Shown here one piece after another: positions 23,185 through 32,614 of a stretch of 37,543 bases of DNA. The notes below the pieces were generated by a model. The model saw only the letters and a program-made list of their open reading frames with translations, searched no databases and was not told the DNA's origin. The stretch spans positions 1 through 37,543 of the forward strand of contig JADGQB010000008.1 of the NCBI GenBank assembly GCA_017882145.1, given 5' to 3'. A program made the position numbers and the translations under genes. Origin of the DNA: Anaerolineales bacterium (lineage in GTDB: Bacteria > Chloroflexota > Anaerolineae > Anaerolineales > Villigracilaceae). The first letter of the stretch is position 1; each line of letters begins with the position of its first letter.

Positions 23185-25175
23185 GCGTCAAAACTTTCCG
23201 TGAACGGATCCGAGAATCCATTGCAGACGAAAACCTGCAAATTGCACTGGATGGGAATGCGCGACACCGCACGCTTGGTCGTTTGGAGGCTTTCTCTGCC
23301 TTCCCGGACTACCAGGAACGACGCGAACGCCTGCACGCCATCAAAGCGGATGTGATCTCCCACCTGGATAAATATCTCGAACAATTCATTGCCAGGGTAA
23401 CCGCAAACGGCATTCAGGTGCATCGCGCTGCGGACGCGCAAGCGGCCATCCGCATCTTCCTCGAAATCGCCCGGGAGCACAATGCCAACCTGGTAGCCAA
23501 GTCGAAATCCATGCTCTCCGAGGAGATCAATTTCAACCATGCACTGGAGGCGGCCGGCCTGAAAGTCGTTGAAACAGACCTGGGCGAGTACATTGTCCAG
23601 CTGCGCGGCGAGCGCCCCAGCCACATCCTTACCCCGGCGGTTCATCTGCGGCGCGGTCAGGTGGGACAGCTCTTTCATGAAAAACTCGGCGTTCCATATA
23701 CCGAAGATATTCCCGAGATGGTCGCGACTGCCCGGCACGTCTTGCGTGAGGTATTCCTGAATGCTGAACTTGGCGTTTCGGGTGTCAACTTCGGCGTAGC
23801 CGAGACCGGTACCTTGTGCCTGGTCACGAATGAAGGCAACGGACGCATGGTCACCAACCTGCCCCCCGTGCACGTAGCGCTGATGGGCATAGAGCGCCTT
23901 GTTCCCACCCTGGATGACCTGGCCCAATTCCTCATGCTACTGCCACGCTCGGCCACCGGGCAGAAATTAAGCGCGTATACCAGCCTGATCAATTCACCGA
24001 AAGGCCGGTTGGATGTGGACGGTGCACGCGAACGCCACTTGATCCTGGTGGACAATGGTCGCTTAGCCCTGCAAGCTTCACCGCTGGCTGAATCGCTCTA
24101 CTGTATTCGCTGTGGCGCCTGCCTGAACGCCTGTCCGGTCTTCCGCGAGATCAGTGGATTGGCCTACCTGGGCAAGGATGGTTCCATCGCCCCTTACCCC
24201 GGTCCGATCGGCTCGGTGCTATCCCCAGGATTGTTGAACTGCGAAAACTATGGCCAGCTTGCCCAGGCATCCACTCTTTGTGGTGCATGCAAGGAAGCCT
24301 GCCCTGTGAATATCGATTTACCCGAGCTCCTGTTGCGGGTGCGCGCCGGAGAGGCTGGGGAAAAATCAAAAAACCAAAGACACGATGAGGGGATTGGAAT
24401 ACCGCCCATCGTCAAACTTGGCCTTATGGTCTATCGTCTGGCAGGAGGAATACCGCCACTGTTCTCGCTTGGCCAATGGCTGGGCGGTCTTATCAGCCGG
24501 GTTTATTCACCGCGCCATAAATATATGCGGCTCCCGGCCTGGACAGGCTGGGGATACAGCAAGGAATTCCCGCGACTGGAAACGCAGGCTTTCCGGACAC
24601 GCTGGAAAGGAATAAAACAAGAAGTCAACTCCGGCGACCAGAGCATCCGGAAAGCTGACATAACACCTGTTCCTGAGCCCAAGCCTGCCCGGTCCCTGGC
24701 AGATCAATTCACGGAAGAATTGTCACTCCTGGGTGTCAAGGTATATCGCCTTCCGGAAATGGATTGTAAAGCCAGCCTGGCGGAATTCCTAAACGAGCGC
24801 ACAATAGAGCAAGTATGCGTGGATTCAGTAGGGGAAAATTATGTTAATGGCGTTGCCATCGTCCGCACACAGGATCCAACCGTCCGGGCGGGAGTGACCG
24901 GCGTGTTTGTGGGGATTGCAGATACCGGTTCGCTGGTGCTGGTCGGAGGGGAAGACAGCCCGCTGACCGCTTCCCTACTCCCGGATATACATATTGCCAT
25001 CCTGAAAGAATCAGACCTTGTGCCGACGCTGGCAGATGCACTAGCCAAGCCCGAGATCCAGTCTGCGACGGCTGCGGTGGTGATCACGGGTCCCAGCCGT
25101 ACCGCGGATATAGAAATGACCCTCACAATTGGGGTGCACGGGCCAAAAGAACTGCACGTCTTTTTGATTTCTTAA
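23181..25175 (+). CDS. LutB-LutC fusion protein (lactate utilisation)
   Basis: A 664-residue protein that joins two normally separate subunits. Residues about 60-300 form a LutB-type LUD domain (GVNFGVAETGTL, LPPVHVALMGIERLVPT). A ferredoxin-like Fe-S region follows, with Cys308, Cys311, Cys314 and Cys318, and then Cys367, Cys370 and Cys374. After a linker (about 385-505), residues about 508-664 form a second LUD domain of LutC type (GIADTGSLVL, HIAILKESDLVPTL, GPSRTADIEMTL). With LutA this would be a complete L-lactate to pyruvate oxidation complex encoded in two genes. The substrate is taken from the family. Confidence 0.9.
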   Translation: MSVKTFRERIRESIADENLQIALDGNARHRTLGRLEAFSAFPDYQERRERLHAIKADVISHLDKYLEQFIARVTANGIQVHRAADAQAAIRIFLEIAREHNANLVAKSKSMLSEEINFNHALEAAGLKVVETDLGEYIVQLRGERPSHILTPAVHLRRGQVGQLFHEKLGVPYTEDIPEMVATARHVLREVFLNAELGVSGVNFGVAETGTLCLVTNEGNGRMVTNLPPVHVALMGIERLVPTLDDLAQFLMLLPRSATGQKLSAYTSLINSPKGRLDVDGARERHLILVDNGRLALQASPLAESLYCIRCGACLNACPVFREISGLAYLGKDGSIAPYPGPIGSVLSPGLLNCENYGQLAQASTLCGACKEACPVNIDLPELLLRVRAGEAGEKSKNQRHDEGIGIPPIVKLGLMVYRLAGGIPPLFSLGQWLGGLISRVYSPRHKYMRLPAWTGWGYSKEFPRLETQAFRTRWKGIKQEVNSGDQSIRKADITPVPEPKPARSLADQFTEELSLLGVKVYRLPEMDCKASLAEFLNERTIEQVCVDSVGENYVNGVAIVRTQDPTVRAGVTGVFVGIADTGSLVLVGGEDSPLTASLLPDIHIAILKESDLVPTLADALAKPEIQSATAAVVITGPSRTADIEMTLTIGVHGPKELHVFLIS

Positions 25176-25624
25176 GTCGCTGCCGATCGCGCCTGCAGCC
25201 ATTTTCCTGTAACTACATATGTGAATTCACGACCCTGGTAGAGCTGGTAAGCCCCATATAGTGAATAGGCGGTGCCGGCTCCAACCATGGCAAAACCCCC
25301 AAAAAAGGCCAGAATCATGACCGGTACGGCAACAAATGTACCGATCCCGATGGTGGCGAAGCTGATGATAAAACCCAACACCCATACAACACCCACGACA
25401 ACGACCGTAATAACCAAAACAGCCGCTTGAAAAACCAGCGATTGGAGGGCATGGAATCCCACCCAAGCGGATTTTTCGCGTTGAGTCAACCAGATCACAA
25501 GGGCTGCAATGAGCCCGCCTACTCCGGCAAAAAGATTCAACAGAGCACTAGCATGGGCCAGTTCCGCCATGGTTCGTTCATCTGACGAGTGTGATGAAAC
25601 AGCATTCTGGGTTTGAGCGGTCAT
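25172..25624 (-). CDS. DUF4870-family small membrane protein
   Basis: A 150-residue protein with a polar N terminus, then three to four hydrophobic helices; AHASALLNLFAGVGGLIAALVIW and the later WVGFHALQSL match the DUF4870 pattern (only the core residues are cited from the first stretch). No function is known for the family. It is transcribed towards the lut genes, and the two stop codons share the palindrome TTAA (25172-25175). Confidence 0.75.
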   Translation of the reverse strand: MTAQTQNAVSSHSSDERTMAELAHASALLNLFAGVGGLIAALVIWLTQREKSAWVGFHALQSLVFQAAVLVITVVVVGVVWVLGFIISFATIGIGTFVAVPVMILAFFGGFAMVGAGTAYSLYGAYQLYQGREFTYVVTGKWLQARSAAT

Positions 25625-25683: not shown

Positions 25684-25712
25684 TTCATATCTATTTGGGT
25701 TTATGCTATAAT
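25684..25712 (+). promoter_or_regulatory. Promoter of the aspS-gatCAB operon
   Basis: TTCATA (25684-25689), a 17-base spacer and a perfect TATAAT (25707-25712), with an extended -10 TGC directly before it. The predicted start is near 25719, about 14 bases before the leader-peptide ATG. Confidence 0.85.
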
Positions 25713-25732
25713 AGCGCAAATCTGAGGCAAGA

Positions 25733-25813
25733 ATGAACACCATTACCTTCGCCAATAATAATGACGCTAATGATAATCGGCCTCCGGCCGTTGGGCGAAG
25801 CCTGCAAGGTTAA
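25733..25813 (+). CDS. Asn/Asp-rich leader peptide of the aspS operon
   Basis: A 26-codon ORF from ATG 25733-25735 to TAA 25811-25813, with GAGG (25724-25727) five bases before the start. It holds six Asn and two Asp codons; codons 8-15 (25754-25777) read NNNDANDN, so seven of eight are Asn or Asp. Asn is about 23 percent of this peptide, far above ordinary protein content. Its job would be to stall the ribosome when charged tRNA-Asn or tRNA-Asp is scarce. The C-terminal half (codons 16-26) is ordinary and encodes RNA segment 2 of the attenuator. It is too short for usual gene finders. Confidence 0.82.
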   Translation: MNTITFANNNDANDNRPPAVGRSLQG

Positions 25814-25873
25814 CAGATACTCCAAGCTAACCAATCGCCCAACGCATCTGCGGAGGGCGATTTATTTTATTAG
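25747..25873 (+). promoter_or_regulatory. Ribosome-mediated attenuator (segments 1-4) ahead of aspS
   Basis: Four segments can pair in exclusive ways. Segment 1 (25747-25753) pairs with 25794-25800 over 7 bp (1:2, protector). Segment 2 (25789-25798) pairs with segment 3 (25835-25844) over 10 perfect bp (2:3, antiterminator), with a helper stem 25808-25812/25828-25832. Segment 3 pairs with segment 4 in the terminator. The Asn/Asp codons start right after segment 1, so a ribosome stalled there would cover segment 1 and free segment 2 to block the terminator. A ribosome that reaches the stop codon would sit on segment 2 and allow termination. Confidence 0.82.
25833..25873 (+). terminator. Attenuator terminator hairpin (3:4)
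   Basis: AATCGCCC (25833-25840) pairs with GGGCGATT (25855-25862); an inner CGC/GCG stem (25843-25845 with 25850-25852) caps it. A U-rich tract follows (TTTATTTTATTA at 25861-25872). It stands between the leader peptide and aspS, where a terminator makes sense only if it is conditional. Confidence 0.82.
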
Positions 25874-25904
25874 AAGGGTTTGACATTATTCCTGGAGGTT
25901 GCAT

Positions 25905-27668
25905 ATGTACAAAACACATACTTGTGGTGAATTACGTGGAACGCATGCCGGACAGACGGTTACGCTGGCGGGTTGGGTACACCGGCGCCGTGACCATGGC
26001 GGTGTGGTCTTCATCGATCTGCGTGACCGTTTCGGCCTGACACAAGTGGTCATCAACCCAAACCTCCCCAAAGAAACTCTGGACCTGGTATCGAATGTCC
26101 GCTCGGAGTGGGTACTACAAATCACCGGTAAAGTTCAAAAACGTCCGGAAGGCATGCAGAATCCAAAGATGCCCACCGGCGAGGTTGAATTGATCGCCTC
26201 CGATGTAGTTACACTCAATACGGCCAAGGCACTGCCATTCATGATCAGCAGTGACGAAGAAGTCGATGAAAATATGCGCCTAAAATATCGCTACCTTGAT
26301 CTGCGGCGTGAGCGCATGCGCCGCAACCTGGAATTACGACACGCGGTGGTGCTGTTTATGCGCACATACCTTTCCGAACGAGGTTTTCTGGAAGTTGAAA
26401 CGCCTTCCCTGTTCAAGACTACACCAGAAGGCGCACGTGACTACCTGGTGCCTTCGCGTGTTTATCCAGGCCAATTTTATGCACTACCCCAGTCGCCACA
26501 GCAATTGAAGCAATTGCTGATGGTGGGCGGGATCGAGCGCTACTTCCAGATTGCACGTTGCTTCCGCGACGAAGACCAGCGCGGCGACCGCCAGCCTGAA
26601 TTCACCCAGCTCGACCTGGAGATGTCCTTCGTCCATCGCGATGACGTGCTCGAGATGGTGGAAAATCTATTCACTGCCATGCTCCCAACCGTTACGCCCC
26701 ATAAGAAATTATTATCTTCGCCCTGGCCGCGTTTTACCTATGACGAGGTGATAACCCGTTTCGGTTCCGATAAACCCGACTTGCGCTTCGGCATGGAACT
26801 AAACGATGTGAGCGGCATTTTTGCAAAAAGCGAATTCGTTGTTTTTAGATCAGCCCTGGAACGCGGCGGGATGGTCAAATGCATCGTCGCTCCTGGTTGC
26901 GCCGGCTACACTCGCAAGCAGTTGGATGAGCTGACCGTGACTGCTAAAGAACTGGGAGCAAAGGGACTGGTTACGTTGGCGCTGACTCCGGAAGGGCTGA
27001 AAGGTTCTGCCGCCAAATTTGTCGGGGAAGCCGAATTAGCCGAACTGGTCAAAATGACCGGGGCCAAAACCGGCGACCTGTACCTGTTTGTAGCTGACAG
27101 CGCCAAGCTGGTTCATAAAGTTCTGGGGGCGCTGCGGGTAGGGTTCCGTGACACACTCAAACTGGCTGACCCGAATGTGATGGCCTTCGCCTGGGTGCTG
27201 GATTTCCCGATGTTCGAATGGAACGAGGAAAACCAGAAATGGGATGCCGCTCATCACATGTTTACCATGCCGCGACTTGAGCATCTCGACCGGTTCGAGA
27301 CCGATCCATCCAGCATTCTCTCGGATGCCTACGATATGGTATGCAACGGATATGAGATGGCTTCCGGATCGATCCGTATCCACCGCCGCGACATTCAAAG
27401 CAAGGTTTTCACGCTGCTCGGGATCGGAGAGGAAGAGGCACAACGCAAGTTCGGGCATATGCTGGAAGCCTTTGAGTTCGGCGCACCTCCGCATGGCGGG
27501 ATGGCTCCTGGCATCGACCGGCTGGTTATGCTGCTGGCGGACGAACCCAATATCCGCGAAGTGATCGCCTTCCCAAAGAACCAGGCTGCCCGGGACGTGA
27601 TGGCAGATGCTCCCTCCCCGGCAGAGCCAAAGCAGCTCAAGGAATTACATATCAAGGTCAGCGATTAG
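25905..27668 (+). CDS. aspS: Aspartyl-tRNA synthetase, probably non-discriminating
   Basis: A 587-residue bacterial-type AspRS: OB-fold anticodon-binding domain (about 1-110), class II catalytic core with motif 2 (FRDEDQRGDRQPEFTQLD), a GAD insertion (about 285-420), and motif 3 (GMAPGIDRLVMLLA). His31 in RRRDHGG and Gly83 in RPEGMQNP match the residues reported in the non-discriminating Pseudomonas aeruginosa enzyme; E. coli has Leu at the first position. It would then charge both tRNA-Asp and tRNA-Asn with Asp. The start is ATG 25905 (GGAGG 6 bases upstream), and the N terminus aligns with family starts; an upstream TTG is less likely. Confidence 0.95.
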   Translation: MYKTHTCGELRGTHAGQTVTLAGWVHRRRDHGGVVFIDLRDRFGLTQVVINPNLPKETLDLVSNVRSEWVLQITGKVQKRPEGMQNPKMPTGEVELIASDVVTLNTAKALPFMISSDEEVDENMRLKYRYLDLRRERMRRNLELRHAVVLFMRTYLSERGFLEVETPSLFKTTPEGARDYLVPSRVYPGQFYALPQSPQQLKQLLMVGGIERYFQIARCFRDEDQRGDRQPEFTQLDLEMSFVHRDDVLEMVENLFTAMLPTVTPHKKLLSSPWPRFTYDEVITRFGSDKPDLRFGMELNDVSGIFAKSEFVVFRSALERGGMVKCIVAPGCAGYTRKQLDELTVTAKELGAKGLVTLALTPEGLKGSAAKFVGEAELAELVKMTGAKTGDLYLFVADSAKLVHKVLGALRVGFRDTLKLADPNVMAFAWVLDFPMFEWNEENQKWDAAHHMFTMPRLEHLDRFETDPSSILSDAYDMVCNGYEMASGSIRIHRRDIQSKVFTLLGIGEEEAQRKFGHMLEAFEFGAPPHGGMAPGIDRLVMLLADEPNIREVIAFPKNQAARDVMADAPSPAEPKQLKELHIKVSD

Positions 27669-27733
27669 CTATCAGCTTTGGCTGTAATTGCCAGTCTTCA
27701 GAGATACGGAAATCTATTTTGGATAGGGTAGAT

Positions 27734-28057
27734 ATGACACCTTCAGAATCCAATAAACCTGCTTTCAGCATTGATGCAGATATGGTCAAGCATGTGGCCT
27801 TTCTGGTGCGATTGGGCATCCAGGATGAGGAAGCCCAGGCATTCAGCCACCAATTTTCGGCCATCATCGACTATTTCCACCTGCTCAATGAGGTGGATAC
27901 CGGGGATGTGCCCCCAGCCTGTGAAACCTCCAACACCCGCAGCGTGATGCGTCCGGATGTGATCAAACCTTCCATGCCACGCGAAGATTTCCTGAAGAAT
28001 GTGCCGCACCGGGAGGGTGATTACGTCCAGGTGCCGTTGGTTTTTGGGGAAGAATAA
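27734..28057 (+). CDS. gatC: Asp/Glu-tRNA amidotransferase subunit C
   Basis: A 107-residue GatC that wraps around and stabilises GatA in the GatCAB amidotransferase. Recognisable parts are the N-terminal helix VKHVAFLVRLGIQDEEAQAF and the C-terminal MRPDVIKPSMPREDFLKN segment, the typical P-x-R-x-D pattern. The start is ATG 27734-27736, preceded by AGGG; an in-frame TTG five codons earlier is less likely. It lies 65 bases after aspS. Confidence 0.93.
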   Translation: MTPSESNKPAFSIDADMVKHVAFLVRLGIQDEEAQAFSHQFSAIIDYFHLLNEVDTGDVPPACETSNTRSVMRPDVIKPSMPREDFLKNVPHREGDYVQVPLVFGEE

Positions 28058-28061
28058 AGCC

Positions 28062-29528
28062 ATGCAACCGCATACTCTTTCCATCCGGGAGGCCCACGAA
28101 CTGCTAACTACGAAACAAATCAGCAGCGTAGAATTGACCACTGCCGTCCTGGATCACATCCACAAAACTGACCCTCTTATTAATGCTTTCGTCACCATCG
28201 CGGATGAGCTGGCACTCGAACAAGCCCGCCTGGCCGATCAACGGTTGCGTCAGAGCGAAGATATTACACCTCTGACAGGGATACCTTTCGCGGTCAAGGA
28301 TTGCATCTCCACCAGGGGTCTGCGTACCACCTGTTCGTCCAAAATCCTGGAAAACTACATTCCGCCATACAATGCGACGGTCATCGACCGGCTTTCCACA
28401 GCCGGCGCAGTCCTGATCGGCAAACAAAACATGGACGAGTTCGGCATGGGTTCTTCCTGTGAGAACTCGGCCTTTTTTGACACTCACAATCCATGGGACC
28501 TGGAACGCGTCCCGGGCGGCTCGAGTGGAGGTTCTGCAGCGGCTGTGGCAGCCAACATGGGCTTGTTCGCGTTGGGAGAAGATACCGGCGGCTCGATCCG
28601 CATGCCGGCCGGATTCTGCAATGTGACCGGATTGAAGACCACCTATGGGCGTGTCTCCCGGTACGGTTTGATCGCCCTGGTTTCCTCATTTGACTCGATC
28701 GGGCCGATGGCACGCAGCGCTTACGATTGCGCGGCCGTTTTACAAAGCATCGCCGGACAGGATCTAAAAGATGCCACTTCGCTCCCTGACCCTATACCGG
28801 ATTACCTGAAGATGCTGGATAAACCCGTAAAAGGCTTGCGTCTTGGCATCCCCAAGGAATATTTCCAGGCCGGCATGGAAGCAGGTGTGGAAAGTTCCAT
28901 CCGGGAAGCCATTCAGAAGTTCGAAGAACTCGGTATGGAGATTCGTGAAGTCTCCCTGCCACATACAACTTATGGGCTGCCCGTCTACTACCTGGTATTA
29001 TTTGCCGAGGCCAGCGCCAACCTGGCCCGTTTTGATGGAACACGTTTCGGGTTATCGGTTGCCGAAGGTGCAGAGAACGTCATCGATCAATATCTGCAGA
29101 CCCGCCGGGAAGGCTTCGGCCCGGAGGTCAAGCGCCGCATCATGCTTGGTGCCTACGTGCTCTCAGCCGGATATTACGACGCCTACTATTTGAAAGCTCA
29201 AAAAGTCCGTACACTTCTTCGGCAGGATTTTGAAGCCGCCTTCGAGCAGTGTGACGCACTTGTTGCCCCGACCTGTCCCACCACTGCCTTTAAGTTGGGT
29301 GAAAAGACCGACGACCCGCTGACAATGTACCTGTCGGATATTTACGTGGTTGCCACTAACCCCGCCGGGGTCCCGTCCCTGTGTGTTCCATGCGGATTTT
29401 CCAATAATATGCCGGTGGGTATGCAGCTGATCGGCAAGCATTTGAGTGAAGATGTGCTGCTACAAATTGGGCATGCATACCAGTCCGCAACCGATTGGCA
29501 TCTCAAACGTCCGGCGGTATCAAAATGA
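28062..29528 (+). CDS. gatA: Asp/Glu-tRNA amidotransferase subunit A
   Basis: A 488-residue amidase-signature enzyme that releases ammonia from glutamine or asparagine for transfer to misacylated tRNA. The catalytic triad is intact: Lys79 (PFAVKDCIS), Ser154 (GGSSGGS) and nucleophile Ser178 (DTGGSIR). This is the same numbering as in well-studied GatA proteins and supports the start at ATG 28062, four bases past gatC. A longer frame runs back into gatC. Confidence 0.96.
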
Positions 29529-30976
29529 CAACCTACGAGCCAGTTATTGGATTGGAAATCCACGCTGAACTCCAAACGAAATCCAAGATGTTCTGTGGCT
29601 GTTCGGCCGCTTACTCAGAGGCGCCGGCAGCCAACACGCTGATCTGCCCGGTCTGCACTGCACTTCCGGGTGCCATGCCAGTGGTTAACCAGAAGGCCGT
29701 GGAACAAGCCATCCTGGTGGGGCTGGCGCTGAACTGCACTATCAACCCGATGAACCAGTTCGCCCGCAAAAACTATTTCTACCCGGACCTTCCCAAAGGC
29801 TACCAGATTTCCCAGTACGATCTGCCGGTGGCATCGAATGGCTGGCTGAATATCCTGGCCGGAACCGATCCCCAGCGGATACGTGTCCGCCGAGCCCACC
29901 TGGAGGAGGATACAGCCAAACTTTTTCACCATGATCGTCATACCCTTGTCGATTACAACCGGGCAGGTGTGCCCCTGCTTGAGATCGTTTCTGAGCCGGA
30001 CATGCATACTGTTGAGGCTGCACTGGACTATGCCACCCGGATCCGGGCCATCCTGCGGTATTTGGGAGTGAACTCCGGAGATATGGAAAAAGGCGTCCTG
30101 CGCTTCGAAGCCAATGTGTCCGTTCGTCCGACCGGCAGCTCGGAGCTGCTCACACGTACTGAAATCAAGAACCTGAACAGCTTCCGGGCGCTCACGCGCG
30201 CGACCGCTTTCGAGATCCAACGCCAGACCCAAATCTACCAATCGGGAGCGGAAGTCGTCCAGGAGACTCTTGGCTGGAACGACCTCAAAGAAATGACGAT
30301 TTCCCAGCGCAGCAAGGAGGAAGCCCACGATTACCGCTACTTCCCCGAGCCGGATTTGCCTCCGCTTGAGATCAATCGTGCCTGGGTTGAACAGATCAAG
30401 TCCGAACTACCAGAACTACCGGAAATGAGAGAACAGCGCTTAATTATGCAATTCGGTTTGACGGTCAATGAAGCCAGGCTGCTGACTTCTGATAAAGCCC
30501 TGGCAGATTATTATGAAAAGACCGTTTCCCTGTCCAAAAGCCCGGTAAAAACCATCAGCAACTGGATTACAGGGGAATTCCTACGCTATGTGAACGACAT
30601 GGGACTAGACCTCGAGCATTTGCCATTCCCACCGGAGCACCTGGCTCAACTTGTGGACCTGGTTACGGCAAAGGCCATCAACGACAATACCGCCAAGGAA
30701 GTTCTGGCCGGGATGTTCAAAACCGGACAGTCTCCCGAAACGATCGTCAAAGCCAACAATCTGGGCCAAATCTCCGACCAGGATGCCCTGGAATTGGTGG
30801 TCGCCCAGGTATTGAACGATAACCCGAAAGAGGTGGCTTCCTATCTGGCGGGAAAGCAAACTGTCTTCCAGTGGATGATGGGGCAGGTGGCGCGTCTCAC
30901 CCGCGGCAAGGCCGACCCGCAAGTGGCGCGCAAATTACTGCTGCAAGCGCTTGAAAAAGCAAGAATCAGCAAGTGA
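29525..30976 (+). CDS. gatB: Asp/Glu-tRNA amidotransferase subunit B
   Basis: A 483-residue GatB, the subunit that phosphorylates the tRNA-bound Asp or Glu and completes amidation. It has [15 protein letters not shown], the zinc-binding CGC...CPVC region, and [17 protein letters not shown] in the kinase-like core, plus a C-terminal YqeY-like helical tail (about 335-483) that contacts tRNA. The start overlaps the gatA stop codon by 4 bases (ATGA). Confidence 0.96.
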
Positions 30977-31016: not shown

Positions 31017-32360
31017 ATGCCCCCCATTATCCGTGTAGAAGAAATTGATAAATACACAGGCCAGGATGTCACAGTCCAGGGCTGGGTTTACAACCGCACC
31101 GATAAAGGCAAGCTGGTCTTCCTGCTCGTGAGGGATGGGTCCGGATTCGTTCAATGTGTGGCCTTCAAAGGCGACCTGCCCGAAGCCGTTTTCGACCAAC
31201 TCACACGCCTGCCGCAGGAATCCTCGGTGATCATTAGCGGACCGGTAAGGGAAGACAAACGGGCGCCCGGCATCCCGGGTGGATATGAGGTGGGCGTCAG
31301 AGAGATCAAGATCGTCCAATTTGCCGGGGATAATTACCCGATGGCGCTTAAAGAACAAGGTGTGGATTTCGCCCTGGATAACCGCCATTTGTGGATCCGC
31401 ATGCCAAGTCAGTGGGCCATCCTGCGCATCCGCGCGACGGTAATCGCGGCCATCCGCGAATGGTTCGAGCAAAATGGTTTCATAAACATGGACACACCCA
31501 TCCTGACCCCGGCGGCTGTCGAAGGGACAACCACCCTTTTCGAGACCGAATATTTCGATGAAGGCAAGGCTTACCTCTCCCAATCCGGTCAACTCTATAA
31601 CGAAGCGGATATCATGGCCTTTGGCAAAGTCTACTGCTTTGGGCCAACTTTCCGGGCCGAGAAATCAAAGACGCGCCGTCACCTGACCGAGTTCTGGATG
31701 GTCGAGCCTGAAATAGCCTTCTGTGACCTGGACCAATTGATGGAAATCGAGGAACAGTTCGTCACCCATATCGTCAAGCGTGTTCTGCGAGAGCGCATGC
31801 CTGAACTCAAATCCATCGGCCGCGACCTGTCGAAATTGGAAAAGATCCAGGCGCCTTTCCCACGCATTTCCTACGATGAAGCTGCGAAAATCATCCTGGA
31901 GATCTACGATAAAGAAACCGATCCCGAAAAGAAAGAACTGCTTAAATTCGAGTGGGGGATGGACTTTGGCGCACCGCACGAGACGGAACTGACCAATTTA
32001 TATGAGAAGCCGGTTTTTGTCTACGGTTACCCGACCAAGGTCAAGGCTTTCTACATGGAACCCTGGCCGGACCGGCCTGAAGTCTGCAAGTCCGTAGACC
32101 TGCTCGCACCGGAAGGTTATGGTGAGATCATCGGCGGCTCTGAACGCATGTCAAGTTATGATCTGCTGCTCCAGCGTATCCATGAACATAAATTGCCTGA
32201 AGAGGCCTACCGCTGGTACCTGGATTTACGCAAGTACGGCAGCGTCCCACACAGCGGCTTCGGCATGGGCGTGGAACGCACGGTATCGTGGATCTGCGGA
32301 AACGAACATATCCGCGAGGCGATTGCCTTCCCGCGCACGATCAAACGCGTCTACCCATAG
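31017..32360 (+). CDS. asnS: Asparaginyl-tRNA synthetase
   Basis: A 447-residue class IIb synthetase that charges tRNA-Asn directly with Asn. It has an OB-fold N-terminal domain ([19 protein letters not shown]), motif 2 ([20 protein letters not shown]) and motif 3 ([12 protein letters not shown]), and ends with [12 protein letters not shown]. The end resembles the Bacillus-type AsnRS rather than the E. coli type. It lacks the GAD insertion of AspRS. The start is ATG 31017 after AAGGAG; the longer frame begins inside gatB. It is separated from gatB by 40 bases, so it may share the attenuated transcript. Confidence 0.93.
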
Positions 32361-32430: not shown

Positions 32431-32436
32431 GACATT

Positions 32437-32614
32437 GCCCTGCTGCGTTCGCGATACTGCACTTCCGCTCTGAGCCAACACCCATAAAATGGGATCCGAT
32501 CTCGCGACAACGAAGCGATAGGCTTAGGCCAAGGCTGAATTGCCGGGTAGGAGCCCGACCTGCTTTTGCAGGTTCAGAACTTTGCAGTACACGGCACATG
32601 CGGGGTACTTTTTT
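32437..32614 (+). ncRNA. ssrS: Candidate 6S RNA
   Basis: An untranslated stretch of about 170-178 bases that folds end to end. The closing stem is CCCTGC 32438-32443 with GCGGGG 32600-32605; TACTGCA 32455-32461 pairs with 32583-32589 over 7 perfect bp; TCTGAGCC 32469-32476 pairs with 32571-32578 over 8 bp with one G-U. The interior has small hairpins (32481-32493, 32558-32573). TTCGC and CTGAGCC occur at places similar to those in the E. coli 6S RNA 5' arm, and a hairpin lies on the 3' side of the central region in both. The closing stem runs into TTTTTT (32609-32614). 6S RNA binds and sequesters RNA polymerase. Another structured RNA remains possible. Confidence 0.55.

Follow-up and report, generated by a model that had tools for sequence, protein, structure and literature searches.

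The stretch of DNA analyzed here, referred to below as the window (37,543 nucleotides), is contig C130 of an Anaerolineales genome of 4.15 Mb (448 contigs, 86.75% complete). Pfam and NCBIfam searches identified the gene order aspS, gatC, gatA, gatB and asnS on its forward strand. The first gene, aspS (25905-27668; NF001750 and TIGR00459, above cut-off), encodes an aspartate--tRNA ligase with the anticodon-domain residues DHGG and EGMQNP, and is preceded by the Shine-Dalgarno sequence GGAGG (25894-25898). The best matches of this AspS in named records were from Chloroflexi/Anaerolineales MAGs. It is followed by gatC (27719-28057; TIGR00135), whose start codon is uncertain, and by gatA (28062-29528; TIGR00132), gatB (29525-30976; NF004012, TIGR00133) and asnS, the asparagine--tRNA ligase gene (31017-32360; NF003037, TIGR00457), whose starts were inferred. 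Directly behind asnS is a 6S RNA (Rfam RF00013, 55.6 bits; 32434-32610, forward strand), and a second 6S match was found near aspS in L229, which belongs to a different family.

The region ahead of aspS contains a promoter, a short open reading frame and an intrinsic terminator, all on the forward strand. The promoter (25684-25712) consists of TTCATA (25684-25689), a 17-nt spacer and TATAAT (25707-25712) with a TG-extended -10, giving 10/12 consensus matches. On its other side a DUF4870 gene (25172-25624) is oriented away from the aspS operon. As this gene is divergent, the terminator is not part of any upstream operon and its being the terminator of the upstream gene was ruled out; the promoter, leader and terminator therefore serve the aspS operon only. 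The leader ORF (25733-25813), taken from the ORF list and kept in relatives, has 26 codons, MNTITFANNNDANDNRPPAVGRSLQG, and follows a Shine-Dalgarno sequence GAGG (25724-25727). Asn is encoded at codons 2, 8, 9, 10, 13 and 15 and Asp at codons 11 and 14, such that seven of the eight codons in the control run (codons 8-15, 25754-25777; Asn Asn Asn Asp Ala Asn Asp Asn) specify one or the other. The preliminary description of this locus had reported the same promoter, ORF and codon counts, which were borne out base by base. When the 200-nt region was shuffled, an ORF with seven Asn/Asp in nine codons arose in 0 of 1000 shuffles, the best having six.

Four RNA segments were delineated by helix search and sequence inspection. 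Segment 1, CTTCGCC (25747-25753), is the 5' arm of helix 1:2, a pairing of 7 bp with 25794-25800. Segment 2, CGTTGGGCGAAG (25789-25800), provides that 3' arm and also, at 25789-25798, the 5' arm of helix 2:3, which pairs over 10 bp with 25835-25844. Segment 3 (25833-25845) contains the latter arm as well as the 5' arm of helix 3:4, in which 25833-25840 pairs over 8 bp with 25855-25862 and an inner CGC/GCG stem is formed by 25843-25845 and 25850-25852. Segment 4 (25850-25862) is the 3' arm of the terminator and is followed by the U-rich tract TATTTTATTA (25863-25872), a tail that is conserved. Segments 2 and 3 are thus each part of two helices, and the exclusive pairings of 7, 10 and 8 bp reported earlier were all found exactly where they had been placed. 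Folding of the terminator hairpin yields -18.3 kcal/mol (z = -4.8); z is -3.9 for the 2:3 region and, short of significance, -1.9 for the 1:2 region by itself. The full-length minimum-energy fold, a static prediction, contains the antiterminator, which makes the outcome a matter of co-transcriptional kinetics.

To follow the leader across relatives, aspS upstream regions were taken from named records and 101 relatives, and leaders were picked up as short ORFs with at least five Asn/Asp in nine codons. This identified 59 distinct upstream regions with such an ORF, nearly all of which had a GC-rich hairpin and then a U-tract after it; in one region (L026) the automatic choice was a wrong ORF ahead of the real leader. 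In the family, the leader peptide has the consensus FANNNNNDNDD..VVGRSLAG. The covariance model R1, which was based on 40 leaders and describes the terminating structure only, had matches in 102 of the 301 genomes of the order, comprising 63/69 in the window's family and 39/232 in other families (a split counted by hand from the match table). Outside the order, a clear further device was found in a genome drawn from the class (G615), with the leader MQSYANNNNDNNDA ahead of aspS. The preliminary description had proposed a comparison upstream of aspS and had stated that its reading would fall if relatives kept neither the Asn/Asp codons nor the pairings. Relatives conserved the Asn/Asp-rich short ORF and kept the helices, with compensatory changes, and the proposed device survived this check.

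Several other observations were made in these regions. In G615 (L232, 107-321) 8 nt separate the end of a tRNA-Lys gene from the ATG of the Asn leader, so this leader may be cut from the tRNA transcript and lack its own promoter. Variant leaders with fewer Asn/Asp codons were seen in L109, L111, L118, L121 and L122 (genera g11, g16 and g19); their terminator is GTCGCCC...GGGCGAT ATTTTTT and their 2:3 helix is weak or elsewhere. The interval between terminator and aspS Shine-Dalgarno sequence carries palindromic repeat-like inserts of two types in many genomes, with the 140-nt leader intact. Type 1 (tgtcattgcgag...cgcaatgaca) was present in L052, L088, L095, L096, L099, L102, L106, L107 and L123, and type 2 (accacaaaggacacaaag...cttcgtg...) in L004, L007, L087, L094, L100, L104, L120 and L127. 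Opposite-strand R1 matches (G017, G233 and others) represented the terminator hairpin in reverse and were rejected, as were matches such as G023:C3, G016:C17 and G224:C94, which had no Asn leader and were taken as chance.

Of the 340 control-run codons in 39 family leaders, 324 encoded Asn or Asp (AAT, AAC, GAT, GAC). Pairwise differences in the run numbered 703 at third, 525 at first and only 68 at second codon positions; synonymous codons were freely interchanged and the second position was nearly invariant. Such a bias would be predicted where the identity of Asn and Asp is important but the choice among their synonymous codons is not. Downstream of the run, L103 and L106 retain the segment 2 RNA despite a shifted reading frame, and their peptides end in YRWAKPC or YRWAKLC in place of VGRSLAG. 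Judged from these two sequences, segment 2 is selected as RNA. The same pair bears on the idea that the leader peptide works in trans, on RNAs other than its own, and that cis control is secondary; such trans activity has been reported for the Sinorhizobium peptide peTrpL (PMC7298713). In line with that idea, VGRSLAG at the C-terminus shows good conservation at the protein level, but the stretch coincides with segment 2 and it is the RNA, not the peptide, that L103 and L106 keep; we consider a trans role the least credible of the explanations weighed here.

Covariation was assessed separately for the three helices. In the family alignment, 96.7% of cells of helices 1:2 and 3:4 were paired, and two-sided changes occurred at four pairs, amounting to 9 double-change cells where shuffles gave 0.8. 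When the register of these helices was slid, just 35-44% of cells were paired; slides of +2 and +3 gave double-change counts similar to the true register, though only 35-39% of their cells were paired. In L102, segment 1 and its partner show a compensatory change from TTCGCC/GGCGAA to TTTGCCC/GGGCAAA. Helix 2:3 showed no covariation inside the family alignment, where it is too conserved. Among divergent leaders its variants included GTTGGG/CCCAAC, GTCGGG/CCCGAC, ATCGGG/CCCGAT and CTCGGG/CCCGAG. An unfitted search for 2:3 in 54 divergent regions, in which p was calculated against shuffled segments and which is free of bias from pairing-based choice, found 26 regions with p < 0.05, of which 18 had p < 0.01, and a clear helix was missing (p >= 0.05) from 28 of these 54 regions of other families. 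When 66 sequences were counted with anchoring, 31 double changes were seen and no shuffle exceeded 18; this anchored count is partly biased toward the helix because the divergent sequences were chosen by pairing. Counts from divergent leaders fitted to the family model were discarded, as segment 2 was misplaced in distant members. Taken together, the alignments indicate compensatory changes in all three helices, for 1:2 and 3:4 in the family and for 2:3 in divergent leaders.

The spacing of these elements was also near-fixed. In 40 leaders the median distance from segment 1 to the first Asn/Asp codon was 0 nt, the last Asn/Asp codon lay 8-14 nt before segment 2, the stop codon followed segment 2 by 12 nt (in 38 of the 40), and segment 3 began 20-28 nt after the stop codon. 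The order and spacing had been described as right for stall-dependent antitermination, and the comparison upheld this. Based on the general ribosome footprint, we infer that the spacing fits a ribosome at the first control codons masking segment 1 and not segment 2.

The ribosome site of the leader proved to be a less general feature. The preliminary description had credited the ORF with a good site, and GAGG is indeed present in the window and common to its clade, in which 16-20 nt separate TATAAT from the ATG; the leaders of most relatives have no Shine-Dalgarno sequence. A TG-extended -10 precedes 53 of the 59 leaders, and in 37/59 regions the ATG is no more than 12 nt from the end of TATAAT, without a Shine-Dalgarno sequence, the distance past the -10 box being 6-12 nt in most relatives. 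With a start site about 7 nt past the -10, the transcripts of most leaders would therefore start at, or close to, the leader ORF. The leader ORF is thus probably leaderless in most relatives, an inference made without mapped start sites. Leaderless short ORFs (poly-Cys) that sense an amino acid have been described in mycobacteria (Canestrari et al. 2020, via PMC9094748). The present ORFs would be like these in being leaderless and amino acid-sensing, and differ in the amino acid and the genes.

R1 matches away from aspS were found in G306, G045 and G298, where the next gene encodes a protein of 345 residues with a match to the Pfam family AsnA (ammonia-dependent asparagine synthetase). AsnA was present in 7 of 150 family genomes, and all seven asnA genes had their own leader and terminator (e.g., MTIIHIANNNNNNNNNRLNAVGRSLPG and MFDYSFANFNNNNNNNNAVLRGVGRSASNLQT). 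The search found no AsnA match in the window's own genome, which has one asnB-type gene. Five of the seven asnA control runs were without Asp (L217 has one Asp at codon 3, outside the run), and the leaders L220 and L222 also hold several Asp. At least two Asp were present in 2/7 asnA leaders versus 40/42 aspS leaders (Fisher p = 2e-4), and the Asp fraction differed likewise (Mann-Whitney p = 4e-4); both p-values are optimistic because the sequences are related. Codon content therefore appears, by sequence comparison, to follow the product, with Asn before asnA and Asn plus Asp before aspS-asnS, and the inference that Asn is sensed is strengthened by the five Asp-free runs.

These leaders also allowed us to weigh whether the nascent Asn/Asp-rich peptide itself, as an arrest peptide or acidic Mg2+ sensor, stalls or destabilizes the ribosome, rather than tRNA charging. 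MgtL-like leaders use an acidic stretch as a Mg2+ sensor, and in aspS leaders the runs, 7-10 codons long and containing Asp, would suit such a role. Acidity is not conserved, however, as the asnA leaders are mostly Asp-free; every downstream gene has a role in Asn/Asp-tRNA or in making Asn; and the peptide past the control run varies with reading frame. We regard this explanation as very unlikely. An equally improbable alternative is that the terminator is conditional but is decided by an RNA-bound protein, tRNA or small molecule, in the manner of a riboswitch or T-box, with the ORF incidental. The terminator and exclusive helices exist, and T-boxes are common in these genomes: they were found in 41/41 relatives tested (4-8 in most genomes) and elsewhere in the window's genome. 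Yet none of the T-boxes listed for the 41 relatives was in front of aspS; those near aspS in G069 and G062 were set aside, as they are located beyond it, beside an ileS-like gene. At the device itself no Rfam family matched at the curated or relaxed threshold, the only hit being a chance snoRNA-type match (E = 3.8), and a T-box (RF00230) or an Rfam Trp, His, Thr, Leu or Phe leader was ruled out as these covariance models had no match in the window. Nor did the family leader alignment contain any conserved block beyond the ORF and helix arms, and an incidental ORF fits neither Asn/Asp codons conserved through synonymous changes nor asnA copies that are mostly Asp-free.

Based on these data, we propose that the device is a transcription attenuator of the ribosome-mediated, leader-peptide type and responds to charged tRNA-Asn, with tRNA-Asp sensed as well at aspS, a reading to which we assign a probability of roughly 90%. 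The sequence features by which such attenuators are recognized are present: an Asn/Asp-rich short ORF sits between promoter and structural gene, its control codons correspond to what the regulated genes make, and the terminator and antiterminator helices are mutually exclusive. The ORF, codons, pairings, conservation, covariation, spacing, gene context and asnA copies were all observed. That the leader is translated, that ribosomes stall on it, that transcription terminates and which way the operon responds to Asn-tRNA are inferences from comparison, as there were no transcript, ribosome-profiling or starvation data for these uncultured organisms. In the proposed mechanism, RNA polymerase would transcribe the leader while a ribosome translates the leader ORF. 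With plentiful Asn-tRNA (and Asp-tRNA), the ribosome would pass the Asn/Asp codons and leave at the stop codon 12 nt beyond segment 2, upon which 1 would pair with 2 and 3 with 4, forming the intrinsic terminator and keeping aspS and the genes behind it off. When Asn-tRNA is scarce, the ribosome would stall at the first Asn codons, directly after segment 1, hiding this segment and leaving segment 2 free; 2:3 would then form, the terminator would be blocked and aspS(-gatCAB)-asnS would be transcribed. The same device with a run made up mainly of Asn would control asnA in some relatives. The original suggestion that the operon is controlled by translation of the Asn/Asp codons is thus supported by comparison (codons, spacing, covariation and asnA leaders), with the response itself inferred.

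Leader-peptide attenuation is known mainly from Proteobacteria and Actinobacteria, with few cases in Firmicutes. In proteobacteria it controls trp, his, thr, leu, ilv and pheST, the last a tRNA synthetase operon. The Anaerolineales device is like these in its short ORF with runs of regulatory codons, its exclusive 1:2, 2:3 and 3:4 helices and its terminator before the first structural gene, and unlike them in its use of Asn (and Asp at aspS), its targets and phylum and its probable leaderless start. Leader-peptide control of trp, cys and leu in Actinobacteria (PMC1262725, in which an asparagine element is unmentioned) is likewise outside the Proteobacteria and concerns other amino acids and genes. 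The His leader peptides of Bacillus hisS/hisZ (PMC2965389, a survey whose text does not include asnS, aspS or Chloroflexi) similarly replace a T-box before a tRNA synthetase gene, but sense His and occur in Firmicutes. The T-box (RF00230) is a regulator of asnS in a small number of Firmicutes (PMC2494555). It too senses tRNA charging and controls tRNA synthetase and amino acid genes; unlike the device, it binds uncharged tRNA directly and does not need translation. A full-text literature search, with most subscription papers outside its scope, found no Asn/Asp leader-peptide attenuator and none of any kind in Chloroflexota, surveys of Actinobacteria and of terminators included, in agreement with the earlier statement that none was known. 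An earlier prediction by Lopatovskaya et al. 2010, who surveyed attenuation in amino acid and aminoacyl-tRNA operons, is not excluded. Within this limited scope, the type of mechanism is standard, and its novelty lies in which amino acid and genes are involved, in the phylum and in the probable leaderless start.

The aspS-gatCAB-asnS operon proposed initially is correct for the window but is not the usual arrangement. In leader-bearing relatives with enough flank, aspS is usually directly beside asnS, and gatCAB was found between them only in the window, L007 and L009. In G023 (L009, L234) and G042 (L230), neighboring units aspS1-gatC-gatA-gatB and aspS2-asnS each have their own attenuator, and the two AspRS are unlike in anticodon-domain residues. 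In the family genomes this domain (residues ~26-34 and 80-90) is of two kinds, DHGG...EGMxNP and TFGG...DQFNP, the latter mostly from genomes without GatB (G005 being an exception), some of them with asnA. We take His31 and Gly82 to mark the non-discriminating AspRS in Pseudomonas. GlnRS was above cut-off in 23 of 31 relatives and present as two contig-end fragments in the window's genome; since most relatives have it, GatCAB is probably kept for Asn-tRNA in these genomes, as it is in Bdellovibrio, where GatCAB serves Asn-tRNA although AsnRS and GlnRS are present (PMC4206432). All five asnA genomes included in both searches were without GatB, compared with 15/61 family genomes (p = 5e-4).

We think it likely, with less assurance than for the device itself, that Chloroflexota have an Asn/Asp regulon of leader-peptide attenuators, mostly leaderless and without Shine-Dalgarno sequences, that move with the Asn-supplying gene and whose codons are tuned per target (Asn and Asp for aspS-asnS and aspS-gatCAB, Asn-dominated for asnA). 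If the proposed reading is true, asparagine (and aspartate) would join the amino acids sensed by attenuation, Chloroflexota would join the phyla that use it, and leader-peptide and T-box sensors would coexist within one genome. The leaderless and Shine-Dalgarno-led versions would constitute a natural series of a single attenuator. For many bacteria in which AsnRS and GatCAB are both encoded, the route to Asn-tRNA is ambiguous (PMC4206432), and the same device at asnA, aspS-gatCAB and aspS-asnS would mark the genes used for Asn-tRNA supply.
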